DNA of 64,000 nucleotides from assembly GCA_947373185.1 (NCBI GenBank), contig CANBWP010000001.1, positions 62,001 to 126,000 of the forward strand, read 5' to 3'. This DNA is from Comamonadaceae bacterium (GTDB lineage Bacteria > Pseudomonadota > Gammaproteobacteria > Burkholderiales > Burkholderiaceae_C). Below, piece after piece: positions 39,108-64,000 of this stretch. Within the stretch, counting starts at the first letter, position 1, and every line of letters begins with the position of its first letter. The translations under genes were made by a program, and so were the position numbers. The notes under the pieces are model-generated. The model did no database searches. It worked only from the letters and a program-made list of their open reading frames with translations, and was not told where the DNA came from.

Positions 39108-39120
39108 GAACAGACAGCAC

Positions 39121-48192: not shown

Positions 48193-48768
48193 TTACTTTC
48201 TTTTGAGATCACTGATTTTTGCTTTGATTTTCTCTAATTGTTGTTTCAACTCTTTAAGTTGAGATTTCTTCCCCGATGCCGATTTTTTCTTCGTTGCAAG
48301 CAATGTGCCTCGGCACTTGGCACTGCCACACCAACAAGGATATTGCGCAATCAATTTTTTGGTCAAGGGCTCATCAATGATGAGGCCGTAGTCATAGTTC
48401 AGTTCGGTTCCCGCGGGAATGTCTTTTTTTGCCTTGATGAAGACGCGGTTGTCTTTAACTTCGGGCTCACAATTGGGTGAACAGCAATGATTGATCCAGC
48501 GAGACGAGTTGCCTCCGTGCAGTGCATCAATGACTTTGTCATCGTCGATTTGAAAATAAAACGTGTGATTGGGGTCTGAAGGGTCGTGCGGATGTCTGTC
48601 TTCGGCTTCTTGCGCGCTGATGATTTCACCAACGTATTCAATAAGCGTATCGCCCTTGGCGATGTCCTGCAGGGCGAATACACCCTTGCCGTGGACACCC
48701 GATTTTCGAACCTGGATCTTCCGTTGTGATGTCTGAGATCCCGTTGATGAAGTATTTGTATTTTTCAT
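48193..48768 (-). CDS. SET-domain lysine methyltransferase-like protein
   Basis: 191 residues. A complete SET domain (RKSGVHGKGVFALQDIAKGD, TLIEYVGEIIS, WINHCCSPNCEPEVKDN, FIKAKKDIPAGTELNYDYG) is followed by a post-SET Zn cluster (PCWCGSAKCRGTLL). The last 45 residues are Lys-rich coiled coil (KKSQLKELKQQLEKIKAKIS). The NHCCSPNC and YDYG motifs are those of active SAM-dependent lysine methyltransferases, mostly eukaryotic but known in some bacteria. Substrate unknown; the basic tail could bind DNA or RNA. Confidence 0.92.
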   Translation of the reverse strand: MKNTNTSSTGSQTSQRKIQVRKSGVHGKGVFALQDIAKGDTLIEYVGEIISAQEAEDRHPHDPSDPNHTFYFQIDDDKVIDALHGGNSSRWINHCCSPNCEPEVKDNRVFIKAKKDIPAGTELNYDYGLIIDEPLTKKLIAQYPCWCGSAKCRGTLLATKKKSASGKKSQLKELKQQLEKIKAKISDLKRK

Positions 48769-48840: not shown

Positions 48841-48858
48841 GCGTCATAAATATTTCAT
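48841..48858 (+). promoter_or_regulatory. Pho-box-like direct repeat upstream of olsB
   Basis: GCGTCAT (48841-48847), AAAT, ATTTCAT (48852-48858) follow the 7-4-7 layout of a PhoB box (CTGTCAT-N4-CTGTCAT) with 10 of 14 repeat positions matching. It lies about 70 nt before the olsB-type start. The match is imperfect and no strong -10 element follows, so this is a candidate only. Confidence 0.45.
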
Positions 48859-48929
48859 ATAAATGCAACATCTTTGAAATTGAAGGTCCGCATCATTAAC
48901 TACCAAGTAAAGCCAACTTGGAGACATTG

Positions 48930-49769
48930 ATGAAAGAACTGCCAAACCCCACATTCCCCATTTCGCAAATCGCTTTGCCACGGGGGTCACTTCATCAAAG
49001 CCCTCAAATTCAAGTTTCAACCAGCGGCACAAAAGATTCGAAATCTCCCATCAAAGTTACATGGGCTAAACATCAGGATGAAATAAGAGAGGCACAAAAA
49101 CTTCGTTACGAAGTTTTTGCCAAAGAGATGGGTGCTCGATTGCCTGCAACCATCGCAGGCCATGACATTGACTTGTTTGACGATTATTGCGAACACCTGC
49201 TCGTGCGTGATGGTGAAAGCAATACGGTCATTGGAACCTACCGCGTATTGACCCCTGTCCAAGCCAAACGAGTCGGCGGAACTTACACAGACACAGAATT
49301 TGATTTGACCAGGTTGCGCTTCATGCGTGAACGCATGGTCGAACTAGGCCGTAGCTGTGTGCACCCTGAGCATCGTCATGGCGGTGTGATTCTGGCACTC
49401 TGGGGTGCATTGTTTGAATTCATGTCGCGCAACCAATTGGACACCATGATTGGTTGTGCCAGCATTCCGATGCTTCACAACGGCATTGTCAGTGGCGATG
49501 CCGCCGCCAGTATGTGGAAGCAACTGTCGATGTCTCATTTAGCCTCCATTGAATTCCATGTCAGACCTAGACTCCCATTGCCCATCGAAGAGCTTGATTC
49601 GGATTTACCCGTTGAGCCGCCAGCGCTGATCAAAGGTTACTTAAGGTTAGGCGCCAAGATTTTAGGTGCGCCAGCTTGGGATCCAGATTTCAATACTGCA
49701 GATTTGCCGATGCTGATGCAAGTGAAAGATTTGCCCATGCGCTATCGCAAGCATTTTGTGGGTGCATGA
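48930..49769 (+). CDS. olsB: GNAT acyltransferase, OlsB-type (lyso-ornithine lipid synthesis)
   Basis: 279-residue acyltransferase of the OlsB/putative-haemolysin group. EAQKLRYEVFAKEMGARLPA, GHDIDLFDDYCEHLLVRD, ERMVELGRSCVHPEHRHGGV and the later AKILGAPAWDPDFNTADL match the family, which attaches a 3-hydroxyacyl chain to the alpha-amine of ornithine. The start 48930 has GGAG 6 nt upstream; a TTG 4 codons earlier would overlap that site. Its stop overlaps the next start (ATGA). OlsA is not in the window. Confidence 0.85.
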   Translation: MKELPNPTFPISQIALPRGSLHQSPQIQVSTSGTKDSKSPIKVTWAKHQDEIREAQKLRYEVFAKEMGARLPATIAGHDIDLFDDYCEHLLVRDGESNTVIGTYRVLTPVQAKRVGGTYTDTEFDLTRLRFMRERMVELGRSCVHPEHRHGGVILALWGALFEFMSRNQLDTMIGCASIPMLHNGIVSGDAAASMWKQLSMSHLASIEFHVRPRLPLPIEELDSDLPVEPPALIKGYLRLGAKILGAPAWDPDFNTADLPMLMQVKDLPMRYRKHFVGA

Positions 49770-50596
49770 TGATGTTCAAAGACGTTCAGGAATTTATGCC
49801 AGGCGAGAGCTCGCAAAAGAAGCACTACCGTGCCATCTTTATTTCTGATCTCCATCTGGGAACCCCAGGATGTCAAGCCGAAGCGCTTTTAGAGTTTTTA
49901 AAAACACATACATGTGACACGCTGTATTTGGTAGGTGACATCATTGATGGTTGGCAATTGCGAAGAAAATGGTATTGGCCGCAAGCGCACAACGACGTGG
50001 TTCAAAAACTATTGCGAAAGGCCCGAAAAGGTTGTCGCGTGGTGTATGTGCCAGGCAATCACGACGAGTTTGCACGCGACTTTTTAGACCATTCATTTGG
50101 TGGCGTGGAGGTCCTTGAACATGCCGTTCACATCACAGCGACTGGCAAAAAGCTCTGGGTTATTCATGGCGATTATTTTGATGGCGTGATTCAATTCGCC
50201 AAATGGTTGGCTTATGTGGGTGACACTCTTTATGAGTGGGCTCTCAAAGCCAACCGGCATTTGAATTACATGCGAGGTCGAATGGGCCTGCCTTACTGGT
50301 CGTTGTCTGCTTATCTGAAGTTAAAAGTGAAAAAAGCGGTCAACTTCATTTCCGATTTTGAAGTAGCTGTCGCACACGAAGCGAAGAAATTGGGGTATGA
50401 CGGGGTCGTCTGCGGTCACATTCACCATGCGGAAATCAGAGACATTGACGGTGTGATTTACTGCAATGACGGTGATTGGGTTGAGAGCCTCAGTACGCTG
50501 GTTGAGCATCATGATGGGCGCTTAGAAATACTGACATTTGACCCCTACTCAGAAGTCAAAGTCGCAAGCAAAGCGACCACTTTGGTCATTGCATGA
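49766..50596 (+). CDS. Metallophosphoesterase (PlcP / UDP-2,3-diacylglucosamine-hydrolase type)
   Basis: 276 residues with the calcineurin-like metal motifs in order: ISDLHLGTPG, VGDIIDGW, PGNHDEFARD, VIHGDYFD and CGHIHHAEI. Annotated relatives are LpxH-like, but the family includes PlcP, which removes phospholipid headgroups during phosphate starvation and is often next to a GT4 gene, as here. The gene starts inside the 3' end of the OlsB-type gene. A C-terminal helix (SLSAYLKLKVKKAVNF) may aid membrane contact. Confidence 0.85.
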   Translation: MMMFKDVQEFMPGESSQKKHYRAIFISDLHLGTPGCQAEALLEFLKTHTCDTLYLVGDIIDGWQLRRKWYWPQAHNDVVQKLLRKARKGCRVVYVPGNHDEFARDFLDHSFGGVEVLEHAVHITATGKKLWVIHGDYFDGVIQFAKWLAYVGDTLYEWALKANRHLNYMRGRMGLPYWSLSAYLKLKVKKAVNFISDFEVAVAHEAKKLGYDGVVCGHIHHAEIRDIDGVIYCNDGDWVESLSTLVEHHDGRLEILTFDPYSEVKVASKATTLVIA

Positions 50597-51627
50597 AGAT
50601 CGTTCTCGTCACTGACGCGTGGCAACCTCAAGTCAATGGTGTAGTGACAACGTTGGTTGAACTTGTCAAAGAGCTGGAGATTGCAGGTCATACGGTTCAA
50701 GTGATACATCCGGGTCTGTTTAAAACCAAGCCCTGTCCAGGCTATGCTGGCATCGATTTGGCGGTCAATCCAAAAGCACATTTAAAAAACTTGTTGATGT
50801 CGTCGGAGTTTGACGCCATCCATTTAGCGACAGAGGGGCCATTAGGGTGGGCGGCACGCAGTATATGCGCTTCAAATCGCTGGAAATACACAACGGCATA
50901 TCACACGCGATTCCCTGAAATTTTGAAGGCAGCTTTGCGACTTCCTTTGTTTGTGGGTTATGCCTTGTTCAAGTATTTCCATCGCCACTCTGCCGGTGTG
51001 ATGGTGCCTACCATTGGGGTACAAAATCTTCTAAGTGAACGTGGATTTAAAAACCTAAAACCATGGACACATGGTGTGGATGTTCGTTTGTTCAACTACG
51101 CACCTGAACCACTCGAATATCCAGATTTTGCACAAATCAAACGCCCCATCGCCGTCTTTGTTGGCAGAGTTTCCTATGAGAAAAACATAGAGGCTTTTTT
51201 AAAGATGCCATTTGAAGGCTCTAAAGTGGTCTGTGGGGTGGGGCCTTTGGAGAGCGATCTAAAGCGACGTTATCAAAGTGTGACGTGGTTGGGATTGCTG
51301 CCACGTCCAGAGTTGGCGATTGTCTACAGTGCAGCAGACGTTTTTGTCTTTCCCAGTCGCAATGAAACGTTTGGTTTGGTCATGCTGGAGGCGATGGCTT
51401 GTGGCACGCCCGTGGCAGCTTATCCAGTCGATGGACCTCAAGAGGTTCTGATTGACCATGAAACTTGCGTCATCAAAGGTGGTATTCTGAGTGAGGACTT
51501 GGCGGGCGCAACCGAGACTGCGATGCACATTCCTCGAAGCCAAGCAAGAGAACGTGCGTTGGAATTTAGCTGGGAAAAATCTGGAATTTTGTTCCTGAAA
51601 AATTTGGTTGCGGCCAAATTAAATTGA
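50593..51627 (+). CDS. GT4-family glycosyltransferase (Agt/MgtA-like)
   Basis: 344-residue GT-B fold glycosyltransferase of family 4. N-terminal KIVLVTDAWQPQVNGVVTTL is the usual start of diacylglycerol or polyprenol glycosyltransferases; the donor half has VFVGRVSYEKNIEAFL and the EX7E motif SRNETFGLVMLEAMACG. In the plcP-agt cassette this enzyme glycosylates the diacylglycerol freed by PlcP to make phosphorus-free glycolipids. It overlaps the PlcP-like gene by 4 nt. Sugar specificity cannot be read from sequence. Confidence 0.88.
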   Translation: MKIVLVTDAWQPQVNGVVTTLVELVKELEIAGHTVQVIHPGLFKTKPCPGYAGIDLAVNPKAHLKNLLMSSEFDAIHLATEGPLGWAARSICASNRWKYTTAYHTRFPEILKAALRLPLFVGYALFKYFHRHSAGVMVPTIGVQNLLSERGFKNLKPWTHGVDVRLFNYAPEPLEYPDFAQIKRPIAVFVGRVSYEKNIEAFLKMPFEGSKVVCGVGPLESDLKRRYQSVTWLGLLPRPELAIVYSAADVFVFPSRNETFGLVMLEAMACGTPVAAYPVDGPQEVLIDHETCVIKGGILSEDLAGATETAMHIPRSQARERALEFSWEKSGILFLKNLVAAKLN

Positions 51628-51641
51628 TTGAGCGTATCGAG

Positions 51642-52265
51642 TCAGCGAACGGCAGGTGCAACCAATCGCTTCAAATCTTCCTCGGAAATCAATTCAAAGA
51701 CTTTCACTACTTTTTGGATGCCCGAGATTTGACTGCGGCTGATTAAGTCAGTCACTCTTTGAGATTCGGTCGATGTCACGCGTCCCATGAAGTAAACAAT
51801 GCCGCGTTCTGTCACGATTGTGATAGCAGATGAATGAATGTCTTTGGCTTGAATCAGCAATGCTCTGACTTGGCCGGTCACGACTTTGTCCTGGGCTCGT
51901 TGTGTCAAGGAGCTTTCAGCACGGATGGCCAAATCATTCACAACTGTTTTGACATTGTCTTGACTCTTTACAAATCGTTCTGCTTGAACCCGATCATTGT
52001 CACTGTTGACTTCACCTGTTAACAAAACCATGAGGTTGTAACTGCTAACCCTGACATGTGAATTTTTAGGCAATAGAGTGCGCAATCCAGACTCAGATCG
52101 CAATTCAATGGCTTCGTCCTCCAATTGAATACCAGCCGTTCTTCTGTCGTTGAACACTTTGCCAACCACAGCCGCACTGCCTATGACGGCAGGCGCACAT
52201 GCAGTCAATTGGCTGCCTGCAATTAGCAGGAAAGTGACGAGGACATAATTCGATCGAGCGTTCAT
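51642..52265 (-). CDS. BON-domain outer-membrane lipoprotein
   Basis: 207 residues with a lipoprotein signal peptide (lipobox LTAC near residue 23) and two BON domains (SYNLMVLLTGEVNSDNDRV, VTERGIVYFMGRVTSTESQ). The VIGSAAVVGKVFNDRRT segment is the YraP/OsmY-type N terminus. Such proteins bind phospholipids and help outer-membrane integrity. Start 52265 overlaps the TRAP permease stop (ATGA), so it is the last member of the minus-strand transport operon. Confidence 0.9.
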   Translation of the reverse strand: MNARSNYVLVTFLLIAGSQLTACAPAVIGSAAVVGKVFNDRRTAGIQLEDEAIELRSESGLRTLLPKNSHVRVSSYNLMVLLTGEVNSDNDRVQAERFVKSQDNVKTVVNDLAIRAESSLTQRAQDKVVTGQVRALLIQAKDIHSSAITIVTERGIVYFMGRVTSTESQRVTDLISRSQISGIQKVVKVFELISEEDLKRLVAPAVR

Positions 52266-54142
52266 TTGAAACCTGAGAGGTGAATTGACGATGGGATCAG
52301 CAATTGAGGCAATGCCATGACCCAAAGAGGGAACCAAGACAAAACGATGGTGCCAATGAAGATGGCCATCAGCGCGGTTATCACTGAGCGCATGACCTCT
52401 TTGAGGGGCTTCTTAAAGACTGCGCTTGCAAAGTAAATGTTCATGCCGGCTGGCGGGCATAAAAAGCCCATTTCCAAATTGGCTAAGAAAATGATTCCGA
52501 AGTGAACGGGGTCGATGCCATAGCTTGTAGCCAGTGGCAGCAGCAGTGGCACCAACACAATGATGGCGGCATAGATCTCCATCAAGGCCCCAGCAAAAAA
52601 TAGGAAGACATTCAAAGCCAATAAGAATACATATTTGTTGGCGGTGATGCTTTGCACCCATGAAGATGCCATGTCTGGAAGACCCACATCAATCAGGTAA
52701 TTGGTCAATCCAAGTGCCATGCCCATGATCAGCAAAATGCCGCCAATGATTTGAGCTGCTTGATTCAAACAATGTTGGAAATTGATAAACTTTAATTCTC
52801 GGTGAATGAGTCCTTGAGTGATCAAGGCATAGGCGACTGTCAGAGCAGCTCCTTCGGTCGGGGTGGCCAAACCAGAGATGAGTCCTCCTATGGCAATCAC
52901 GGGAGCCAGTAACTCCCATTTGCTTGTCCATAGTGCCGCCCTCAAGGAAGGTTGCTGACTTTTTTGTGTGGCCGCACTATGAGCTTGGTCAGTGTGTGTT
53001 TGACTGTTTACGCCAGATTTGAAGTGGATGAATTGACCAAACAAAGTCAGACAGAAAACCATCAATAAGGCAGGCACCAGGCCTGCAATGAACATGGTAT
53101 TGATTGGGACTCTTGCCATGATGGCATACATGATGAGTGGCACTGAGGGCGCAAGCAATACACCCAAAGAACTGGCACTTGTGATCAGACCAATGCCTTT
53201 GGACTCTGGATACTCAACTTTAAGTAAGAGCGGCAACATCAAGCCACCCAGCGCGAGAATGGTCACGCCACTGCCACCCGTGAGTGCTGTAAAACAACTG
53301 CACAGACAAGCAACTGCCAAAACAGTTCCCCTTTGGCCCGTTCCAAATGCGGCCGTGAACAGTTGGCTCAGTCTGACGGCTGCTTGAGTGTTGGCAAATA
53401 TCAGACCGGCCAGTGTGAAAAGGGGCAACGCTGGTAAAGATGGATTGACTGTAATTTGATAGTGTGACAAGGCTAAAGAAGCCATCGGAATGGATTCTTG
53501 AGAAAATAAAAACCAAGACAAAGCGCCCAATGCCAAAAAAATGGGACCGCCTAACATCAAAAAACTCAAAAGCAGTAAAGCAATCCAGGTGCCTGGAATG
53601 GCTGTGGAGAAAACCCACAGATTGATCCACTTTGCCGATCCCAGGATGAAGAGCACCCCAATCCACTGGAAACGGATGCTGTCGTGCCAACGTCGTCCCA
53701 ATTGAATGCCAAGGACAACGAATCCCAAAGGCAATGCACACAAAAATTGCCATGTAGGAATGCCATAGGCAATTTGGTGACCTGTTTCAAACTCAGACGC
53801 AACCAACTCAAAACAGCCCTGTGCCAATACACCACAAATCAAGGCGGCACCTAAGTAGACCCAAGCGCGTGCGATGGCACGAAGGCTCGGTTGTTTGATG
53901 TCTTGCCAAAGTGAGCCGAGACTGGTTAAGTGCCCGGTTCTTTCTGCATAAATAGCACCTGTCAACGAAAAAATCAGGCCGAGGTGTTGTACCAATACCG
54001 GAGCGTTGTCAATGCCACTGCCCTGCAGGGGTCTAAGCAATACCTCAATGACAGGAATTAAAACCATTGCGCAAAGCGCGACCGATGCCAAAGCTGCATC
54101 CCAATGAACCATGGCGCGCAAGCTGCTGATCAGCAAATTCAT
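52262..54142 (-). CDS. Fused TRAP transporter permease (DctQ-DctM type)
   Basis: 626-residue inner-membrane protein with about 16 hydrophobic segments. The first ~170 residues look like the small DctQ subunit (four segments, including LTGAIYAERTGHLT), and the rest is the large DctM subunit (LSFLMLGGPIFLALGALSWF, LPLFTLAGLIFANT, NLEMGFLCPPAGMNIYFASA). Fused TRAP permeases exist but are less common than split ones. It uses the TRAP binding protein upstream and a Na+ or H+ gradient. ATGA overlap with the BON gene. Confidence 0.9.
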   Translation of the reverse strand: MNLLISSLRAMVHWDAALASVALCAMVLIPVIEVLLRPLQGSGIDNAPVLVQHLGLIFSLTGAIYAERTGHLTSLGSLWQDIKQPSLRAIARAWVYLGAALICGVLAQGCFELVASEFETGHQIAYGIPTWQFLCALPLGFVVLGIQLGRRWHDSIRFQWIGVLFILGSAKWINLWVFSTAIPGTWIALLLLSFLMLGGPIFLALGALSWFLFSQESIPMASLALSHYQITVNPSLPALPLFTLAGLIFANTQAAVRLSQLFTAAFGTGQRGTVLAVACLCSCFTALTGGSGVTILALGGLMLPLLLKVEYPESKGIGLITSASSLGVLLAPSVPLIMYAIMARVPINTMFIAGLVPALLMVFCLTLFGQFIHFKSGVNSQTHTDQAHSAATQKSQQPSLRAALWTSKWELLAPVIAIGGLISGLATPTEGAALTVAYALITQGLIHRELKFINFQHCLNQAAQIIGGILLIMGMALGLTNYLIDVGLPDMASSWVQSITANKYVFLLALNVFLFFAGALMEIYAAIIVLVPLLLPLATSYGIDPVHFGIIFLANLEMGFLCPPAGMNIYFASAVFKKPLKEVMRSVITALMAIFIGTIVLSWFPLWVMALPQLLIPSSIHLSGFK

Positions 54143-55173
54143 GGGTTTTTTGTGCTTCGGTATGTTTTCAGATGGGCAAATACTTCATCGAAAGTATCTG
54201 CTGGCACCATTTTCCCTCTGATACGTGGATAGAGTGCTTCGCTCAATGCGCGCCATTCTTTCATTTGTTCTGCGTTGGGCTGGTTGACCTGTAGTCCCCA
54301 TTTTTTCATGGCCTCGACTGCTTCTTCGACTTCTTTGCGAGCTTGTTTTCGAATCACTGCGCCCGCATCATCAGATGAAGTTCTCAGTATTTTTTGAGCA
54401 TCTGGCGACATCTCGTCCCACGTTTTTTTATTGATCACGAATGCACCGACGATGGGCGCCCAATTGATTTCCAACATGTTTGGTGCGCTGTTGTAAATTT
54501 GCGAAGCCAGTGCGAAGTAGGGCGTTGACGGCACCACATTGATCATGCCTGTTTGGATGGCTGGCAAAATATCTGTTGGCTCCAAGGGAACGGGTGTGTA
54601 GCCTAGGCTCTTCATAATTTCCTGTTGCTCCGCTTCGGCACCCCAGGCGAAAAATTTCATTTTTTTGAAATCTTCAGGACTCCAAGCTGCTTGTTTCGAA
54701 AAAAAGCGGACCCAACCTGCATCACCCCAAGCCAATACAACAAAACCTTTTTCGAGAAACTTCTTTTCCATTCCGGTGCGCATTTTTTCGCGCACATAGT
54801 CCAATTCGTCCCAAGATCGAAATGCCAGTGGCAGATTTTGCAGTGCTGCAATAGAGGGCTCTATTTCCCGAAGTCCCACAACAGACAGAAGTGCAGCTTG
54901 CAGTTGTCCAATGCGCATTCTGCGTACCATTTCTGCTTCGCCGCCTTGGCTGCCATCTGTGAAGACATTGAAACGAGGCGTACCGATTTGACTCTTTTTC
55001 CACGCTTCCCCAATTTCCATCAATTGCCGGTGGTAAAGAGAATTTTTAGGTACCAAAGAACCAATTTTTAACTGAGCTTCGGCTGCATTTGAGATGCTTG
55101 TAGAGACAGATAAGCAGGCCAATGCCATGCCTAAAAATGATTTCCGTGAAAGGAGATAATTCATCATGATCAT
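54139..55173 (-). CDS. TRAP transporter solute-binding protein (DctP type, TatP-like)
   Basis: 344-residue periplasmic binding protein. Signal peptide with a twin-basic start (LLSRKSFLGMALACLSVSTS) is followed by QLKIGSLVPKNSLYHRQLME and the TRAP-P core FVVLAWGDAGWVRFFSKQAA. It lies 5 nt from the TatT lipoprotein gene, as P and T components do in TPAT systems. Carboxylates are the usual ligands of TRAP proteins, but TPAT ligands may be hydrophobic. Start 55173 or 55167 (MMNY). Confidence 0.9.
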   Translation of the reverse strand: MIMMNYLLSRKSFLGMALACLSVSTSISNAAEAQLKIGSLVPKNSLYHRQLMEIGEAWKKSQIGTPRFNVFTDGSQGGEAEMVRRMRIGQLQAALLSVVGLREIEPSIAALQNLPLAFRSWDELDYVREKMRTGMEKKFLEKGFVVLAWGDAGWVRFFSKQAAWSPEDFKKMKFFAWGAEAEQQEIMKSLGYTPVPLEPTDILPAIQTGMINVVPSTPYFALASQIYNSAPNMLEINWAPIVGAFVINKKTWDEMSPDAQKILRTSSDDAGAVIRKQARKEVEEAVEAMKKWGLQVNQPNAEQMKEWRALSEALYPRIRGKMVPADTFDEVFAHLKTYRSTKNP

Positions 55174-55178
55174 GTGAT

Positions 55179-56072
55179 CTAAAAAAGGTTGTCGCTTGAT
55201 TCCAATAGCCAGCGTGCACGCCGAACCATGATCACGTTGCTCAGGTCAGATTTGTCTTTGCCCAATTCAATGGCCTGAGTCAGAAGTTGAATGAATGCGT
55301 CCTTGTTGTTTGCAGCAACAGCCCAGTTTTCAGCTTTAGCAACAAAGGGTGAAATTTGGTCAAGTCGCCATTCAATGGCTGAATCAAAGTAGGCTTGTGC
55401 ACGACCAAGGTTGCCGCCAGGTCTGGCCAATTCAAGTGTGCCCATCATGCTGGCAAGTCCGCCCTTGTCGAATCTGGGGTTGGCGATCCAAGTAGCCTCT
55501 GCCAATTTTAAAACTTGGGGCAGATCAGCCACGATGTCGGGGCTGTCTTTGGAAAGAGAAATAGCGCCAGCCCATGCCGTCATGGTCCAATAGGCCAGTC
55601 CTACATCTGCAGGCGCAATTTCAATTGACGCGCTAGACTTTTTGTCTTGCGCACTGGCATCCCACAAAGGGTATCTGCGTGACAGGGTTTGAAGGCCGAG
55701 TGATTTGGCACGCAAAAGCATTTTGGCTGCGCGCGATCTAAGTTGGTTGGCTTTTTGAATGCCTTCAGACTCGGTTCGGTCAGCCTCGTCCATCAAATAG
55801 ACATAGGCATATTGTGTGTAACCGCGAGTGACAGATTCTGCCAACTTCACATGGTCGGGAATTTCTTGCAGCAGCGCTTGAGATACTTTCAGGTGGTAAG
55901 CACTGGCATGCTGGAGAAGCTCCAAGTCTTCGTCATCAGTGACGGTTTCTTTGGACAATAATTCGCCCGCGTTATTGAGCAGATGACTCTGTACAGCGCA
56001 TCCCGTGAGAAAAGACAGAAAGAGGGCACCGGCCAACACATACCGTATGTCATGAAAGAATGTATGTCTCAA
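55179..56072 (-). CDS. tatT: TRAP transporter TatT-component lipoprotein
   Basis: About 297-residue lipoprotein (lipobox LTGCAVQ) matching the TatT family described with T. pallidum Tp0956, the TPR-like subunit of TPAT TRAP transporters. All-helical with repeats (VSQALLQEIPDHVKLAESVT, ANPRFDKGGLASMMGTLELA, AQAYFDSAIEWRL). TTG at 56072 is preferred (AGGGA 5 nt upstream, gives a 24-residue signal peptide); the open frame reaches TTG 56117, inside the exbB 3' end. TatT trimers are proposed to hand hydrophobic ligands to the P component. Confidence 0.82.
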   Translation of the reverse strand: MRHTFFHDIRYVLAGALFLSFLTGCAVQSHLLNNAGELLSKETVTDDEDLELLQHASAYHLKVSQALLQEIPDHVKLAESVTRGYTQYAYVYLMDEADRTESEGIQKANQLRSRAAKMLLRAKSLGLQTLSRRYPLWDASAQDKKSSASIEIAPADVGLAYWTMTAWAGAISLSKDSPDIVADLPQVLKLAEATWIANPRFDKGGLASMMGTLELARPGGNLGRAQAYFDSAIEWRLDQISPFVAKAENWAVAANNKDAFIQLLTQAIELGKDKSDLSNVIMVRRARWLLESSDNLF

Positions 56073-56091
56073 ACCGGTCCCTGTGAGAAAA

Positions 56092-56664
56092 TCAAATGGT
56101 TTGATTGGACATTTCAAGCAGCGCTAATTTGGTCTCGTCTCCAAGCCGTTCAACTTTGGCAAGAAATGCGTTGTAGACGATCAAACAAATGAGTGCCGTG
56201 CCAATGCCAATGGCCGTTGCCAACAAGGCCGTACCAATCCCGGCACTGACCCCTTGTGGGTCAGAAATGCCGGATTTGGCCAACGCAGTGAAGGTGTCAA
56301 ATATGCCCAAAATGGTACCAAGCAAGCCCAACAAAGGTGCAGCTGTCACAATGGTGTCCAACGCCCACAGGTGTTGGTTCAATTGATGCTGTACCCTGAT
56401 GAATGCTTGTTCAGCCACATCGTCAGCCACCTTTTGCGAAGCTGAAGGATGAAGTCCGTTGGCAAAGGCATGTGCAACCACCTCGCCCACATCACCTGTT
56501 TTGAATTCAGGCAATGAGGACTTGGTTTTCAAGGCTTGAAGCAGGCTTTTAATTTGACGATTTGCATGTGTATAAAAAATCGTGCGCTCAACGGCCAAGA
56601 ATACAGCCAATCCCAACGCAAAATACAACAAATACAAAGACAAATCATGCAAGAAAACCATCAT
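56092..56664 (-). CDS. exbB: ExbB/TolQ/MotA-family proton channel protein
   Basis: 190-residue inner-membrane protein with three membrane helices. An N-terminal helix (LYLLYFALGLAVFLAVERTI) is followed by a cytoplasmic loop, then TIVTAAPLLGLLGTILGIFDTF and ISDPQGVSAGIGTALLATAI, the ExbB pore-forming helices. Works with ExbD and TonB to energise the TonB-dependent receptor. It is separated from ExbD by TonB and the receptor, an unusual order; a 10 nt gap follows the receptor. Confidence 0.9.
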   Translation of the reverse strand: MMVFLHDLSLYLLYFALGLAVFLAVERTIFYTHANRQIKSLLQALKTKSSLPEFKTGDVGEVVAHAFANGLHPSASQKVADDVAEQAFIRVQHQLNQHLWALDTIVTAAPLLGLLGTILGIFDTFTALAKSGISDPQGVSAGIGTALLATAIGIGTALICLIVYNAFLAKVERLGDETKLALLEMSNQTI

Positions 56665-56674
56665 GGGTTTCGCC

Positions 56675-59050
56675 TTAGAAGTCGGAACGCAAAGTCACGC
56701 TAGCAAAGCGAGGTGCGCCGATGTTATAGCTGGGATTTGAACCAGCCAAAGAACCCAATGCCAAAGCACGGGTTGTGAAGCTAGAACCACTGGGTGAACT
56801 GATTCGCTTGTATGCCGTGTTGGTCAGGTTGTCGACATTGACGCGGATTTCAGGCGATTTGAAAAAGCCTGTTTCTGGCAATTTGTAACCTGCTGCCAAA
56901 TTCCACAAAGCATATGCATCCATGGCTTGGTCATTCACCAAGGTTGAGTAAGCTTTGCCTGTGTGTTTACCTGTCAACTGTCCAAACCACGAACCTTCTC
57001 TGTAGTTCAAGGCCATGGCGGCCATGAAACGGGGCGTATCAGGCATTTGTTTGCCGGCTGTCGCTTCAGTCAAAGTGGTTGAAACTTTCAAGTCTTGTTT
57101 CATCAAGCTTTCTGTGTATGTCAGGGAGCTGTAGAAAGAGAATTGATTGTTCAGTTTTTGCGCCCATTCAAACTCAGCACCTTTCATTCGGACATTGCCT
57201 ACGTTGTAATCCAATGAGCTCTGGCTGACTGGGTCCCATGCAGCAGCAATGCGATCTTTGAAATTGACCACAAAGACAGATCCGGAGAGGGTGGTTTCTT
57301 TGGACTGTAAACGGTAGCCCAAGTCAAAGTTGGTGGAGGTTTCAATGCCAACCGCAGGATTACGCAAGGTCGAGCCTGTGAGGACGCCATTTACAACAGT
57401 GCCACCTGTGAGTAGGTTGGACAGCACGAAGTTGGATGGTGCGCGAAAATTCTCCGCTACGTTAAAGAAGACAGACTTTTCTGCATCCAAATTGTATTTG
57501 GCACCAAAACTTGGCAATACTTTGCTGTAAGTACGCTTGATTTCGTAGTCTAAGTCAGCACGACCAACGCCATAGGTTCCTGAGTTGGCGTAGTTGATGA
57601 AGTCACGGTCAATGGAGGAGTTGCGAACACCAATTTGAAGCGCCAGTTTGTCTTGCAGCAATGCAATGCTGTCTTGCGCAAACAAAGAAGTGCCAGTGCT
57701 GATTGTTTTCCAATCGCGTGCTTGGTAAGGCTGGCCATCAGGTCGCAATATAAAGGCAGCGGTATTGTCGAGCCAAGCACTGGAAGCGTTGCCTGCATTG
57801 TCAAACGTCACACGAGGTCCTGTTTGACGGTGGACAGCACGCTCTGTCCAGTAACCCACATTGACATTGTGATTGTCTACATGGTAATTGGCTTTAAAGG
57901 TCACGCCAGGTCGATTTGTTTCAGTCACGCTGCTGCCGTAGGTCATGACTTTGTCAAGCGTGTCGCCATCGCCATTGATGTCTCTGACGCGTGTGGCCAT
58001 CGTGCCTGTTCCACCTTCAGACAGCAATTGCAACTGACTGCCACCAGTGCCGTAGCCGTACCAAAAGTAGGGTTCGGCACTCACAGTCAAGTCTTTGTTG
58101 ACTTTGAATTCTGCTTTGCTCGTCAACAAGTAATTGCGAAATGGATTGACGTTGTACTTGTAGTAGCCATCAGCAGGAGATGATTCTGTTTGAGCCGTTC
58201 CAGCAACTGGTGTTAAGTGTTGGGGGGCCACATTGCTGAAATCAAAGCTGGCGCCATATTGGGCAATTTGTGCATTTGTCAGCGCTCGGAAATTGTTGTT
58301 GATCGCTTTGTTGTACAAAACGCTTGCGCTTAATAAAACATCTGCATTGGGACGGACTTCAGTGGCGAAATCAATGTGCTCGCGCTGAGCTTCACCGGGG
58401 CCCTTGAACTTGTCAGCTGATGTTTTCGAATAGGACACAAAAGCTTTTGCATCACTAGGGCCAAATTTTCCGGTATCGACTCGAACAAAAGCACGTTGGT
58501 AGCTTAATTGACCGCCAGAAATGGCAGTACGCATGCCAAATTTGTCTTTGGGTGAGCATGTCACCATGCCCAAATTGCCGCCCGAAGCGCCGACATGGGG
58601 CGCATCAGTGTCTGTAGAGCCTTGCGTCACAAACACTTCGCACAAATTTTCCGAATCAGTGTACTCTTGGGGATAAACGGCAAAGTTACCTGAGTCGTTG
58701 ACGGGGGCACCGTTGATTGTCAGACCCATTTGATCGCCAGCAAAACCGCGCACACGTATGCCGCCTCCAAAAAGTCCAGTGGCATCGGTGCTGAAGGCGT
58801 TGACGCCAGGCAGCAAGTCAATCACCTGAAATGCGTTCGCAGATGGATTTAATTTGTCCAAGTAGGCGCGATTCACAGAGCTACGTGCTTTGGGTGTTTC
58901 TTCTTGGGACACCAAGCCAGTGTCAGTGCCGCCGGCCTGGCCTTCAACATTGATTTTGCCGACATCGGTCGCTTGTTGCGCCATGATGAGGGGGGACGTA
59001 AATGCCAGGCTGATGAGCAAGGCAAGCGGTGTCGGTCTGAACTTTTTCAT
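56675..59050 (-). CDS. TonB-dependent outer-membrane receptor
   Basis: 791 residues. Signal peptide MKKFRPTPLALLISLAFTSP ending near MAQQ; plug domain (RSSVNRAYLDKLNPSANAFQ, LLPGVNAFSTDATGLFGGGI, IRVRGFAGDQMGLTINGAPV, two Cys in ENLCEVF and VTCSPKD); then a 22-strand barrel ending in Phe (FASVTLRSDF). Start 59050 has AGGAG 5 nt upstream; the longer frame into tonB lacks a signal. Sits amid tonB, exbB/D and the TRAP genes, so it probably brings the TRAP ligand over the outer membrane. Ligand unknown. Confidence 0.93.
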   Translation of the reverse strand: MKKFRPTPLALLISLAFTSPLIMAQQATDVGKINVEGQAGGTDTGLVSQEETPKARSSVNRAYLDKLNPSANAFQVIDLLPGVNAFSTDATGLFGGGIRVRGFAGDQMGLTINGAPVNDSGNFAVYPQEYTDSENLCEVFVTQGSTDTDAPHVGASGGNLGMVTCSPKDKFGMRTAISGGQLSYQRAFVRVDTGKFGPSDAKAFVSYSKTSADKFKGPGEAQREHIDFATEVRPNADVLLSASVLYNKAINNNFRALTNAQIAQYGASFDFSNVAPQHLTPVAGTAQTESSPADGYYKYNVNPFRNYLLTSKAEFKVNKDLTVSAEPYFWYGYGTGGSQLQLLSEGGTGTMATRVRDINGDGDTLDKVMTYGSSVTETNRPGVTFKANYHVDNHNVNVGYWTERAVHRQTGPRVTFDNAGNASSAWLDNTAAFILRPDGQPYQARDWKTISTGTSLFAQDSIALLQDKLALQIGVRNSSIDRDFINYANSGTYGVGRADLDYEIKRTYSKVLPSFGAKYNLDAEKSVFFNVAENFRAPSNFVLSNLLTGGTVVNGVLTGSTLRNPAVGIETSTNFDLGYRLQSKETTLSGSVFVVNFKDRIAAAWDPVSQSSLDYNVGNVRMKGAEFEWAQKLNNQFSFYSSLTYTESLMKQDLKVSTTLTEATAGKQMPDTPRFMAAMALNYREGSWFGQLTGKHTGKAYSTLVNDQAMDAYALWNLAAGYKLPETGFFKSPEIRVNVDNLTNTAYKRISSPSGSSFTTRALALGSLAGSNPSYNIGAPRFASVTLRSDF

Positions 59051-59069
59051 AAAAACTCCTGATTGAAAA

Positions 59070-59759
59070 TTAATTAAAAGGGACAAAATCGAGCGTGACT
59101 GTGAACTTGTGTTGAGTTTGGGAAGGCCAGCTTCCTTCAGGCCATGGTGCATAGTCGGTGCGTCTGACCGTGGTCAGGGCTGCGTTGTCCAGCAGGATTG
59201 AATTGCTGGACTCTTCGATGCCAGCCTCTTGCAAGCTGCCATTGCGAAATAGCACAAACCAAACCCTGGCTTTGCCCGCGGGTCTTTGTAAACTGGCTTC
59301 TCGGCCAGTTGGGTAACGCTTATTGGCATTGAGCGTGGCTCGGACGTTGCTGACGTAATTGTTTTCTACATTGACGTTGACGGGAATTTGGGCAACGACT
59401 TTGGGAGCCTCTGCCAGCGCTTGTGCAGGAGCCAGTTGCGGCATGGCTTGTGTTGGCAAGGGTGATGGGCGGCTAGGTTCAGTCGGAGTGAGTGCCTTGA
59501 AAGTTTCTGCGGGCATTGCCATGGGCGCCTCACGGGTGACGACTTGTTGGGGCTCAGCTCGTTTGGGGGGCTGAGGTGTCGCGGGAGCCCGTTGCAGTAG
59601 TGGCTCAATCAATGTTGTCGTCAGTTCGATGGCTTCTTGCGCGACCATTTCAGCTGGCGCCTGAAGTGATTGCGCCATGACATACACCGCAAGAACCCCC
59701 GCCAGCGAAATCAAGCTCGAAAGCTTGTATCTTCCGTGATGAAGACGGTCAATTAGCAT
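59070..59759 (-). CDS. tonB: TonB energy-transducing protein
   Basis: 229 residues: one N-terminal membrane helix (LSSLISLAGVLAVYVMAQSL), a Pro-rich linker (PATPQPPKRAEPQ, PSRPSPLPTQAMPQLAPAQA) and a C-terminal TonB domain (YPTGREASLQRPAGKARVWF, SSNSILLDNAALTTVRRT). Lies between exbD and the receptor, so likely dedicated to this receptor. Its start is 2 nt before the ExbD stop. Confidence 0.92.
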   Translation of the reverse strand: MLIDRLHHGRYKLSSLISLAGVLAVYVMAQSLQAPAEMVAQEAIELTTTLIEPLLQRAPATPQPPKRAEPQQVVTREAPMAMPAETFKALTPTEPSRPSPLPTQAMPQLAPAQALAEAPKVVAQIPVNVNVENNYVSNVRATLNANKRYPTGREASLQRPAGKARVWFVLFRNGSLQEAGIEESSNSILLDNAALTTVRRTDYAPWPEGSWPSQTQHKFTVTLDFVPFN

Positions 59760-59761
59760 GT

Positions 59762-60175
59762 TTATGTACGCCCACGGGCAGCCAAGGACACTTTGCCAAG
59801 CCCAGACTTTTTAATTTCGTCCATCACGTCGATCAAGGTTTGCACTTCTGCGCCTTTGTCGCTGTTCACAATGACTGCAATTTGATCTGCACTGCCTGCT
59901 TTTTGACGCACTGCATTAGCAAGCGCGGTGATTTCAACGCCTTTGCCATCAACTTGAATGATGTTTTCTTTGCCAAGGGTCACGACAACTTGGACGTCTT
60001 TGGTTTTCAGTTGTTGTGCTTGTGAAGAAGAGGGCTGCTGAGTTTTGATGCCCAGAGCCGGAATCACATTGACACTGATCAAGACGAAAAAAACCAATAA
60101 GAACATCATCACGTCGATCATGGGAATGATCTCTATGCGTGCTTTTTTTCTTTCAGTTTTCTGCCAATGGCGCAT
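59762..60175 (-). CDS. exbD: ExbD/TolR-family protein
   Basis: 137-residue protein with one membrane helix (IPMIDVMMFLLVFFVLISVN), containing the conserved Asp in PMIDVMM, and a periplasmic domain (VVVTLGKENIIQVDGKGVEI, TLIDVMDEIKKSGLGKVSLA). It stabilises ExbB and couples proton flow. ATG 60175 is chosen; a TTG at 60205 is possible but lacks a ribosome site. First of the TonB cluster, 83 nt downstream of the nucleotidase gene. Confidence 0.92.
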   Translation of the reverse strand: MRHWQKTERKKARIEIIPMIDVMMFLLVFFVLISVNVIPALGIKTQQPSSSQAQQLKTKDVQVVVTLGKENIIQVDGKGVEITALANAVRQKAGSADQIAVIVNSDKGAEVQTLIDVMDEIKKSGLGKVSLAARGRT

Positions 60176-60227
60176 GATGCTTTGCCGTAATAGGAACAAT
60201 GGCAAAGAATAATTTCAGAGTGTGACA

Positions 60228-60256
60228 ATAGTGTTAAACCCTGATTGAGTTTGCAA
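60228..60256 (-). promoter_or_regulatory. Candidate promoter for exbD-tonB-receptor-TRAP genes
   Basis: On the minus strand a TTGCAA (60256-60251) and CACTAT (60233-60228) are 17 bp apart. Only half of the -10 consensus matches. The place, between the nucleotidase stop and the exbD start, is the only gap above 50 nt in the run, so an internal promoter here is plausible. Confidence 0.3.
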
Positions 60257-60258
60257 TT

Positions 60259-62019
60259 TCACAACATTCGTATGCGATGTCGTGAGGGTGCGTTGATACC
60301 GGGATTGACTCGCAAATACTCTGCCAGTGCATCGACGTCCAATTCACCCCCAGTCACTGTGCGGACTGAATTGAATTGCCCAAAACCATCGCCACCACTG
60401 GCTAAATAACTGTTCATCGTGACGCGATACTCGCGCTGTGCTTGCAGTGCTTGTTGACGAATTTGAATGTTTGAAATTCGCTGCCCTTGAACTTGATTGA
60501 GGTTGACCTCATAACTTAAATTGGAAGAAGGGAACAAAACTTTGATCCGTTCAAGATTGGCATATTGAAACTCTAGCAAATCCTTGATCTGCTGGCCTGA
60601 CATACTTTTGACAACCAGCGTATTGCCAAAAGGCTGTATCTTGAAAAGCTGACCAAAATTAACAGTACCACCTCCTGGTGGAATGATTAAATCAGCACGA
60701 ACGCCACCGGCATTCATGAGTGCAAAATCAGAAGCGCCACGAAGGGGACTGGCTGTTGAAAACCATTGGGCATCGGCAATCAAATTACCAAGTTCTGATT
60801 CTCCGGAAGGTGATGTTTTCCGATCCATAGAAGCCGGTAGGTGGCTGATGACTTTTTGAACTTGAACCTGGGATGCAAGTCGATAGTTGTTCACGATTTT
60901 TTCAACAGATTTGTCTTTGCCATAAGAGGGCAGCAATGACGAAACGGGAATCTTCATACCCGCCGTGTTGACAAAAGTTTCGCTTTGCACAACGTGGTTC
61001 AAGGCAGATTTTTTGATCACTGTGTGATTGATGGGGTCGATGTCCAACTCAATGTGCGTCAGCAACGTTCCATATTGACCTGCACTGGTGAGCAAAAACG
61101 GTTTGTTTGGGTTCATGCGCTGGAATTCACAGGCATAGGCGCGATGGGTGTGTCCTGAGACCACCACATCAAAGGCCGGATCTAATTTGTTCAAAATAGG
61201 AACAATGTCGCCAGACAGACCAGGACAACTCGGATCATTGTGACTGCCTTTGATGAGGCCGCCTTCGTGAATCACCAAAACCAAAGCGCTCACACCTTGT
61301 GCTTTGAGTGTTGGCACCCATGCGTTGGCAGTGGCCGCTTCATCTTCGAACTTGAGTCCTTTGATGCCATCTGGCATGACCATGTTGGGCGTGCCTTTGA
61401 GCGTCATCCCTACAAATCCTACCTTCACCACGTGCAGTCCTTGTTTGAAACTCTTGATGCCATAAGAAGGAAACAAAGTCTGGTCATTGTCTTGTTTGAC
61501 ATTCGCTGCTAAAAACTGAAAGTTAGCGCCTGCAAACTGGCGATTGACTTGGCATGGTTCAAACCGAGTGTGCTTTTCACATCCACCGCGCTGCATTCGC
61601 TGAAGTTCCTTTGAACCTTTGTCAAATTCATGGTTGCCAACGGCATTGAAGTCAATTCCCATTTCATTGACCGCTTCAATGGTGGGTTCATCTAAAAATA
61701 AGGCAGAAGTCAGGGGTGATGCGCCAATCATGTCGCCAGCGGAAACAACGGCATGCAGAGGATTTTGCTGTTTGTAATGTTGAATGGCAGCTGCCAAATA
61801 GGCGATCCCGCCTGCTGGCACGTCTGTCAGATCATTGCCAAGTTGTTCTTTGACAGAAATTTGAGGTGGCTCTAAATGACCATGCAAATCGTTGAACGCC
61901 AGAATGCTGATGTGCATAGACTCTGATGTGGGCGATGTGTTTTCTGACAAGGGTGCGCAGGCACCTATGAACGCCAGAGTCAGACAGACAAAAGAAAGCG
62001 AAAATTTGGAATGATTCAC
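60259..62019 (-). CDS. 5'-nucleotidase / UshA-like metallophosphoesterase lipoprotein
   Basis: 586-residue exported enzyme. Lipoprotein signal (IGACAP lipobox near residue 21); dinuclear metal motifs FNDLHGHLEP, SAGDMIGAS, VGNHEFDKGS and VSGHTHRAYAC; then the C-terminal nucleotide-binding domain (MNAGGVRADLI, FKIQPFGNTLVV, SGGDGFGQFN). It dephosphorylates nucleotides, sugars or other phosphate esters at the cell surface or in the periplasm. Start overlaps the psd stop by 4 nt, so both are co-transcribed. Confidence 0.92.
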   Translation of the reverse strand: MNHSKFSLSFVCLTLAFIGACAPLSENTSPTSESMHISILAFNDLHGHLEPPQISVKEQLGNDLTDVPAGGIAYLAAAIQHYKQQNPLHAVVSAGDMIGASPLTSALFLDEPTIEAVNEMGIDFNAVGNHEFDKGSKELQRMQRGGCEKHTRFEPCQVNRQFAGANFQFLAANVKQDNDQTLFPSYGIKSFKQGLHVVKVGFVGMTLKGTPNMVMPDGIKGLKFEDEAATANAWVPTLKAQGVSALVLVIHEGGLIKGSHNDPSCPGLSGDIVPILNKLDPAFDVVVSGHTHRAYACEFQRMNPNKPFLLTSAGQYGTLLTHIELDIDPINHTVIKKSALNHVVQSETFVNTAGMKIPVSSLLPSYGKDKSVEKIVNNYRLASQVQVQKVISHLPASMDRKTSPSGESELGNLIADAQWFSTASPLRGASDFALMNAGGVRADLIIPPGGGTVNFGQLFKIQPFGNTLVVKSMSGQQIKDLLEFQYANLERIKVLFPSSNLSYEVNLNQVQGQRISNIQIRQQALQAQREYRVTMNSYLASGGDGFGQFNSVRTVTGGELDVDALAEYLRVNPGINAPSRHRIRML

Positions 62020-62888
62020 GATAATTTCTCAAGCAAAGCTTGGCCCATTTTGATTCGTTGTCCTGTTGCGATGCCCTGGGCAAGTTTGTATCCCTTGGGT
62101 AAAAAAACCAAAATGGTTGACCCGTGTTGAAACCAGCCTAACTCCTGACCTTTGTAAGTTTGAATGGCACAAGGAATTTCGTTGGGACCTTCATAGTCCA
62201 CATGGAACAATAAATTCACAGCATGGAGCCGAAGACTTGCCACCAAAATTGCCGCGACTGGCACCAAAATCATTGGAGAGCCGTCGGCCAATTTGAAATT
62301 GAGTACAGCCCGTTCATTTTTGCAAAAAAGTTGTTCGACTCGCTTCAGGGCAATCGGGTTGACATTCCACGTATCTCCCGCGATGTGTGTGACATGCGTC
62401 AATGTTGCATCTGCTGGTGCATGAAATCGGTGATACATGCTTGAGGTGAGTCTCAGGGTGACGTAAGTCCCGTTTTTGATGGACTCTACAAGTTCACCAG
62501 TTCGAGGCGTAAAGCCCATCAGACTCGAAAGGCTGTACGGGAAACCTTTTGCTTGAAAGACTTGTGTGTAATCAATGGTGCCGCACTCGCCCACAATGGC
62601 ATCGCAGGGGCTGCTCAAGACATGATGCCGCATGTCAACCGAGCGTGAACCAGGTTTGAGTTCTCTTGTAAAGCAGTCATGCATGCTGTCAAATTTTGTT
62701 TTGGCAGCCTCAGACAAATCCAGATCAGAAAATAACTTCCAAACGCCAATGGAAACATCGCGAATGATGGGGTTTTTGATTTGACTCCACCAGCCGATGA
62801 ACCGTGTCAATGCGATTCTCGGTATGCGATTGGTCAACAGAAAATTCAAGTCCTCCTGCGTTGTGATTCTTTGAATTAATTGTTTCAT
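62016..62888 (-). CDS. psd: Phosphatidylserine decarboxylase proenzyme
   Basis: 290-residue pyruvoyl enzyme that makes phosphatidylethanolamine from phosphatidylserine. Active-site motifs SSMYHRFHAPADA and the self-cleavage HGST (FQHGSTILVF; usually LGST) are present, with SPCDAIVGECG upstream (the catalytic Asp region). Start 62888 (MKQLIQR) has AGGA 8 nt upstream; other in-frame starts are 62894, 62933 (ATG) and 62936 (GTG). First gene of the minus-strand run and divergent from the aminotransferase. Confidence 0.9.
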   Translation of the reverse strand: MKQLIQRITTQEDLNFLLTNRIPRIALTRFIGWWSQIKNPIIRDVSIGVWKLFSDLDLSEAAKTKFDSMHDCFTRELKPGSRSVDMRHHVLSSPCDAIVGECGTIDYTQVFQAKGFPYSLSSLMGFTPRTGELVESIKNGTYVTLRLTSSMYHRFHAPADATLTHVTHIAGDTWNVNPIALKRVEQLFCKNERAVLNFKLADGSPMILVPVAAILVASLRLHAVNLLFHVDYEGPNEIPCAIQTYKGQELGWFQHGSTILVFLPKGYKLAQGIATGQRIKMGQALLEKLS

Positions 62889-62953
62889 TTTCATTTTCCT
62901 GTCACGAAATCTAAATAAAAAGAGGTCTTCCATCACTCAGCTTCGGATTCAAC

Positions 62954-64000
62954 GTGTCTGTTCAACTTGCCTTGTCTCTTGGTGCACTTGCGCTCTCATT
63001 GCCTTACGTTAAGCGTCGCTTGGAATTGTCCAGGGCGAAGCATCCTTCTCTCACGGGTCATTCCAGGATGGCGAAGCGAGTTGTTTCAATTCTGCCGGGC
63101 TATGAATTTAACGAAGATCAATTTTTTTCATGTGATGGCGCACCAGATTCAGTGGCCAACATCAGACGCGCTGCATTTTTTACTTTGGCAAACTTGTTGC
63201 AAACAAGACATGCAAAAAGCATTGAAATGACAACTCAGGCGCGTGAAATCATTTCCGATTTGCAATTCACTGGTGCCTATCGAGTGCCATTCCAATTCAG
63301 TCCGGTTGTTCGCCAACACATGAAAGTAGGTGCTTTTATACAGTCTGCTCATGGCGTATTTGTGACAGACCAAGATGGGCAAAAATTTTTCGACCTCACA
63401 GGCTCTTACGGCGTCAATGTTTTTGGTGCAGATTTCTACAAAACATGCATGGATGAGGGGGCCAAACGTGTGCATGATGTTGGTGCGACATTGGGGGCGT
63501 ATCACCCCTGTGTGGCTTACAACGTGCAACGCTTGAAGGAAATTTCTGGGCTAGAGCAAGTCTCATTTCACATGTCAGGGACTGAGGCCGTGATGCAAGC
63601 TGTCCGGTTGGCCCGTTATCACACAGGTCGTCAAAATTTGGTTCGCTTTTGTGGTGCGTACCATGGTTGGTGGGAGGATGTTCAGCCAGGGCCCGGCAAT
63701 CCAATGCCGCCCCGTGAAACTTACACATTAAGGGACATGCATGCCAATTCTCTGAAGGTGTTACGTACCCGCAAGGACATCGCCTGTGTTTTGATCAATC
63801 CTTTACAGGCACTTCACTTGAATCAAGGTGCCCCTGGTGATTCGTCTCTTGTCGATAGCAGCCGTAAAGCCTCCTATGACCGAGCAGCCTACACAGCTTG
63901 GCTGAAGGCTTTGAGGCAAGTTTGCGCAGAGCGTGGCATCGTTCTGATATTTGATGAGGTTTTTTTGGGATTTAGATTGGCCAAAGGTGGTGCCCAAGAG
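62954..64000 (+). CDS. Class III (glutamate-1-semialdehyde-type) aminotransferase, 3' end outside window
   Basis: PLP-dependent aminotransferase cut by the window end, 349 residues visible. The frame opens at a stop upstream of 62954; GTG 62954 is the first usual start, and ATG 63068 is another choice. Family motifs: FDLTGSYGVNVFGADFYK, SFHMSGTEAVMQAVRLARYH (PLP phosphate loop), RFCGAYHGWWEDV and IVLIFDEVFLGFRLAKGG (Asp that contacts the PLP ring). The active Lys lies beyond 64000. Divergent from psd, so possibly linked to aminolipid or amino-alcohol metabolism; this is inference. Confidence 0.9.
   Translation, partial: MSVQLALSLGALALSLPYVKRRLELSRAKHPSLTGHSRMAKRVVSILPGYEFNEDQFFSCDGAPDSVANIRRAAFFTLANLLQTRHAKSIEMTTQAREIISDLQFTGAYRVPFQFSPVVRQHMKVGAFIQSAHGVFVTDQDGQKFFDLTGSYGVNVFGADFYKTCMDEGAKRVHDVGATLGAYHPCVAYNVQRLKEISGLEQVSFHMSGTEAVMQAVRLARYHTGRQNLVRFCGAYHGWWEDVQPGPGNPMPPRETYTLRDMHANSLKVLRTRKDIACVLINPLQALHLNQGAPGDSSLVDSSRKASYDRAAYTAWLKALRQVCAERGIVLIFDEVFLGFRLAKGGAQE

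Follow-up and report, generated by a model that had tools for sequence, protein, structure and literature searches.

What brings a TonB-dependent receptor and a TRAP-type transporter into one bacterial gene run? The question is raised by a 64,000-nucleotide stretch of Comamonadaceae DNA (contig CANBWP010000001.1, positions 62,001 to 126,000), all of which we analysed and call the window. The preliminary description reported a run of genes in the order psd–nucleotidase–exbD–tonB–receptor–exbB–tatT–dctP–dctQM–BON on one strand, here the minus strand; this order and the families named hold on checking against Pfam, and the single long intergenic gap, 83 bp, lies 5' of exbD. The host is a freshwater bacterium of the genus Limnohabitans, and receptors 71–89% identical are found in named relatives, including Limnohabitans sp. 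MMS-10A-178, which carries the complete run, and in further Comamonadaceae and Burkholderiales. The tatT, dctP and dctQM genes encode a TPR-associated TRAP transporter (TPAT). The main theme of the locus is phosphorus, which the preliminary description overlooked, and this part of our interpretation is well supported. At a probability of about 0.5, we favour a phosphate-starvation locus for organophosphate uptake, to which a TPAT has been recruited for the dephosphorylated, probably hydrophobic residue.

On the favoured reading, the receptor, powered by its own ExbB–ExbD–TonB system, would take an organic phosphate across the outer membrane. The nucleotidase lipoprotein, or other hydrolases in relatives, would free phosphate in the periplasm, which the cell would then take up through its usual phosphate transporter. 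For the organic residue that remains, probably hydrophobic or amphipathic, one TPAT clade would have recruited the TatT lipoprotein, the TatP-like protein and DctQM. We infer the ligand, the direction of flow and the cargo of the TPAT; the pairing of receptor and hydrolase is well supported by gene context.

The receptor (56675..59050) has the plug and beta-barrel domains of TonB-dependent receptors and represents a family, organophosphate-associated as set out here, that is widespread in Burkholderiales. The ExbB, ExbD and TonB C-terminal families all occur within the same run, encoded by exbB (56092..56664; PF01618, 95 bits), exbD (59762..60175; PF02472, 101 bits) and tonB (59070..59759; PF03544, 34.7 bits; TIGR01352). 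The nucleotidase gene (60259..62019) encodes a 5'-nucleotidase or UshA-like metallophosphatase (PF02872 and PF00149) with a lipoprotein-type signal, its N-terminus carrying a lipobox-like ...IGAC as judged by eye. We examined 72 receptor loci outside Limnohabitans, 12 from a sample of the order and 60 of 80 relatives, the 20 Limnohabitans loci having been dropped; the receptors are all distinct but related, and two genomes contribute two loci each. In 55 of the 72, a hydrolase of one of eight extracytoplasmic families is encoded within 4 kb of the receptor, as against 0 of 35 TPAT control loci (1/35 within 8 kb). The count is 46/72 without the phospholipase-D-like (PLD-like) proteins, which are not necessarily phosphatases. 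As the eight families were picked after inspection of these loci, the figure of 55/72 is no blind test. The families comprise Nuc (28 loci), PLD-like (17), PhoD-like (8), NPP (7), PhoD (4), metallophosphatase (4), PhoA (1) and phytase-like (1), and the type of hydrolase varies with lineage (Pfam checked on example loci). We conclude that this receptor family is most often partnered by an extracytoplasmic phosphate-ester hydrolase and not by a TPAT. The locus also points to a receptor family, widespread in Burkholderiales, that probably serves to scavenge phosphorus. In loci of the Collimonas/Herbaspirillum type, including L116, L165, L166 and L167–L172, a phospholipase-D-like gene near the receptor replaces or accompanies the nucleotidase.

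In Flavobacterium, TonB transporters encoded alongside phosphatases, with induction upon phosphate depletion, have already been described (PMC8115612), so the receptor–hydrolase half of the locus is a variation on a known theme. In the available text of that report, transporters of the Flavobacterium Pus loci are co-located with phosphomonoesterases and phosphodiesterases, and import of organic phosphorus is proposed. The window receptor is likewise co-located with an extracytoplasmic phosphate-ester hydrolase, the nucleotidase. The Pus systems are from Bacteroidetes and mostly of the SusCD type, comprising PusCD and TonB-dependent transporters induced by low phosphate (PMC8115612, same text), whereas the receptor of the window, from Burkholderiales, stands alone with its own exbD–tonB–exbB genes and, in one clade, with a TPAT. 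A SusD-type Pfam match is absent from all ten proteins that the run encodes, which is therefore not a PusCD pair. In Caulobacter, too, a TonB receptor gene, cc0171, adjoins the gene of a phosphate-starvation lipoprotein, ElpS (PMC2996285); in the part of that paper open to us, cc0171 is reported to be constitutive and neither TonB genes nor a TRAP transporter are mentioned alongside.

The window receptor is one of many, the window genome (G000) having twelve TonB-receptor plug matches in 2.8 Mb. A structure search returned the generic receptor fold and indicated no ligand, and a phmmer search for solved relatives was negative at E up to 0.001. Assignment as a heme receptor was rejected, the scores against TIGR01785 and TIGR01786 being 78.2 and 78.6 bits for cut-offs of 316.85 and 323.75. 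That the receptor serves iron, heme or cobalamin, with the hydrolases as bystanders, we consider very improbable. Heme and transferrin receptor models do match it below cut-off, and siderophore, heme and BtuB receptors are among its fold neighbours, but this fold cannot separate ligands. Moreover, no His is present between the FRAP-like and NP motifs, and unlike hydrolases keep turning up beside the receptor.

Within Limnohabitans, the receptor is present in 22 of 90 genomes and tatT in 42. Among the receptor-bearing genomes, 21/22 have tatT, compared with 21/68 of the others (Fisher p 5e-8, kinship ignored). A species tree covering 80 genomes out of the 90 gives 6–7 independent pairs in which tatT follows the receptor and none or one in which it goes the opposite way (median p 0.016, and 0.031 for the reverse test); this tree was built from psd1 and two neighbours, includes 20 of the 22 receptor genomes and has many half-filled rows. 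The collinear arrangement of the window is seen in 12 genomes, five of them interrupted by contig ends, which fall within the receptor in G003 and G083 and within tatT in G005, G073 and G092. In a further 6 genomes (clade B), the receptor operon and the TPAT are convergent, separated by 26 bp to 4 kb, and at L072 and L075 the space between them holds two phoA genes; in G109, contig ends hide the arrangement. Since the arrangements vary and loci L039 and L041 keep the TPAT without the TonB-receptor block, this block appears to have been gained and lost, and the TPAT can stay behind without it.

In wider samples, and at E up to 0.001, TatT occurs in 26 of 250 genomes from the order, 21 of which score above the family cut-off, and in 11 of 398 from the phylum, 8 of which do so; the window genome is counted in both totals. 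Genus-built profiles detected no ExbB, ExbD, TonB or receptor in 19/19 TPAT loci outside Limnohabitans, each represented by 6.6–20 kb; of the weak tatT matches, only that of G050 was fetched (L043, no block). Conversely, receptor relatives with 40–51% identity occur in ten further genomes sampled from the order, and 0/10 are in the tatT list. The linkage nevertheless recurs. At L184, L186 and L191, a tatT–dctP–dctQM operon with a type-I phosphodiesterase gene lies just upstream of exbD–tonB–receptor–exbB; at L159, a TPAT-type dctP–dctQM pair lies 7.7 kb from the receptor in convergent orientation, the contig ending before any tatT; and at L152, a divergent tatT sits at the contig edge, 2.3 kb from the receptor. 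TPAT neighbours are thus present at 5/72 receptor loci against about 0.03 expected within the flanks searched, a rough estimate on an assumed genome size. The preliminary description had proposed that receptor and TPAT form one system. The association is beyond chance and survives in several arrangements; the conservation of gene order over several genera that was to support the proposal is not seen. The same description took separation of the two blocks in most relatives as the sign that would count against a single system, and this is what we found in the 19 outside TPAT loci, in the ten receptor genomes without tatT and, likewise, in most TPAT-only Limnohabitans.

In a tree of DctQM, a single 23-row clade (SH-aLRT 98) unites the collinear, convergent and L184-type TPATs, and four of its members (L037, L039, L041 and L109) are without this receptor. 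The other clade holds 16 of 18 TPAT-only rows, two rows with receptor and TPAT on different contigs, and L159. This tree and the species tree come from quick searches without bootstraps, and the DctQM tree drew a long-branch warning. The link between receptor and TPAT is genuine and largely confined to one TPAT clade. A phytase-like gene adjoins tatT in L073, L074, L075, L112, L037 and L109, the genomes of L037 and L109 being without this receptor. It is because of the co-occurrence, the near-restriction to one clade and the hydrolase neighbours of that clade that we include a TPAT step in the mechanism. An alternative is that the two blocks were made adjacent by island transfer only and that the TPAT is unrelated to phosphorus. 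Presence in Limnohabitans is indeed patchy, and both the hydrolase-free surroundings of the 35 control loci and the 19 outside loci without the block fit this explanation; the recurrent proximity outside the genus, in rough excess of expectation as given above, and the restriction of linked TPATs by clade make it improbable. At L037 (872–4345) and L112 (1502–2561), a TonB-dependent receptor cluster of another kind, with ExbB–ExbD, was observed 5–7 kb from tatT, accompanied by a metallophosphatase and a phytase-like gene.

The TPAT itself is of a recognised kind. The T-component encoded by tatT (55179..56117) matches PF16811 and has the Tp0956 fold; its lipobox, LTGC, has a Cys that is invariant in 9/9 aligned sequences, a lipoprotein signature that speaks to sequence and not to chemistry. 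The TatP-like solute-binding protein encoded by dctP (54139..55173; PF03480, 136 bits; match to the TatP Tp0957) has Phe in the column of the canonical TRAP Arg, and the other rows covering this column have Phe or Trp (those of L076, L131 and L159 do not cover it). The fused permease gene dctQM (52262..54142) was identified by PF04290, PF06808 and the tree. In Treponema pallidum, the Tp0956–Tp0957 TPAT likewise combines a TatT lipoprotein, a TatP-like protein without the TRAP Arg and a fused DctQM, and Tp0956 has a hydrophobic pore; the operon as given in the accessible portion of that work (PMC5812351) is one of three genes, whereas the window TPAT joins a TonB system, a receptor and a phosphatase. 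The T-component BstC of Methylococcus, which has a role in sterol transport, is grouped with an RND transporter and a PhnD-like protein, without TRAP DctP or DctQM, in what is available of its report (PMC10942540). A solved bacterial TPAT-family protein, 8g52/8g53, is known here by its PDB titles.

The receptor and the TPAT might also form a continuous trans-envelope route for hydrophobic, most likely phospholipid-derived, phosphate esters, so that a single Pho-controlled locus would harvest both phosphorus and carbon. Here, the receptor would import or extract the ester, a periplasmic hydrolase would strip off the phosphate, and the lipid residue would pass from an outer-membrane-anchored TatT to TatP and DctQM. 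We put this forward tentatively and hold it to be rather doubtful; if true, it would supply both an outer-membrane receptor and a class of substrate for a TPAT, where TPAT cargo, in those parts of the literature available, is deduced mainly from structures. The preliminary description knew of no account of a dedicated ExbBD–TonB system used jointly with a TPAT, and we likewise found no paper linking a TonB receptor to a TPAT in the open-access literature, among the matches listed.

Regulation by phosphate is suggested by a direct-repeat, PHO-box-like footprint 5' of exbD (60222..60239, minus strand), which is aligned across the genus and overlaps a promoter-like match. Of 20 distinct sequences from the genus, 13 have their best match 61–65 bp 5' of exbD, and 18/20 exbD regions score at least 11.5 on the same strand, for a background of 27% of 214 upstream regions. 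A second element (48841..48858, plus strand) precedes an olsB-like gene; among 13 distinct regions 5' of this gene, 7 have the best match at −89 to −91 and 9 score at least 12.5. A full-score match also belongs to one of the phoA genes of L072. The window has 49 PHO-box-like sites compared with 26.6 in mononucleotide shuffles, and single sites therefore carry little weight. Together, these elements hint at control of the locus by PhoB without proving it. A match of score 15 at 62888 falls on the start codon of psd2 and was not used, as coding or ribosome-binding constraint may explain its conservation.

The olsB-like gene (48918..49769) heads a cluster on the plus strand that converges on the run, the end of its last gene lying 15 bp from that of BON. 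It encodes an N-acyltransferase of the ornithine-lipid type (PF13444; NF052554, 1e-45, below cut-off) and is followed by a plcP-like metallophosphoesterase gene (49766..50596; PF12850/PF00149), named from family and gene context, and an agt-like family-4 glycosyltransferase gene (50593..51627; PF00534). Neighbouring plcP and agt genes are associated with phosphate-starvation lipid remodelling, and in those clusters, too, a metallophosphoesterase adjoins a glycosyltransferase, here behind the olsB-like gene; neither a TonB receptor nor a TPAT is mentioned in the accessible text of the source (PMC4796936). Outside Limnohabitans, olsB-like or plcP-like genes are near the receptor at L143, L146, L147, L151, L154 and L181. 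Divergent from the olsB-like gene, on the minus strand at 48193–48768, is a gene for a 191-residue protein, SET-domain-like by eye (NF043024, 42.7 bits, cut-off 550).

Several observations weigh against a TPAT working together with the receptor under phosphate control. At 67 of the 72 receptor loci outside Limnohabitans, there is no TPAT gene, some contigs being short. Separate contigs carry the receptor and the TPAT in G087 and G093, where the TPAT is of the other clade, and in G081 (77% complete), with a 50%-identical receptor, tatT was not found. At the stricter score of at least 12.5, only 9/20 exbD regions qualify, for a background of 19%. Physically joined genes may, besides, be gained or lost together without any shared function. 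Finally, A-type TPATs persist at L039 and L041 without nucleotidase, TonB block or receptor, and tatT–dctP–dctQM there retains psd2 (and, in L039, BON). This last observation favours the main rival to our interpretation, namely, that two phosphate-starvation modules with separate substrates share an island. The TonB–receptor–nucleotidase module would scavenge organophosphates, and the TPAT, with psd2 and the BON protein, would handle lipids from membrane remodelling. The olsB/plcP/agt-like genes that adjoin the run are in keeping with this, as are the lipid associations of T-components in the BstC report (PMC10942540, available part) and the occurrence of psd near four of the 35 control loci for the TPAT (L093, L095 and the pair L026 and L102, which are identical in DctQM). 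Yet the linked TPAT clade has its phytase-like neighbour even where the receptor is missing (L037, L109), and the blocks stay close in several of the relatives' arrangements. On balance, we regard two such modules as possible, if somewhat unlikely.

The outermost genes of the run are psd2 and BON. A phosphatidylserine decarboxylase is encoded by psd2 (62016..62894, minus strand; PF02666, 179 bits); because the window genome has a second psd copy elsewhere, we rejected the idea that psd2 marks a housekeeping lipid operon. The BON-domain lipoprotein gene (51642..52265, minus strand; PF04972; NF008247 below cut-off) encodes what we take to be a protein resembling DolP/YraP. Divergent from psd2, a class-III aminotransferase-like gene (62954–64000, plus strand) runs off the window; its cluster is in the same position in relatives, and in L073 a gene for an LplT-like lysophospholipid transporter is close by. 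Far from the run, at 38920–41589 on the plus strand, is the gene for a large protein with, by eye, a filamentous-haemagglutinin-like N-terminal part followed by collagen-like Gly-X-Y repeats.

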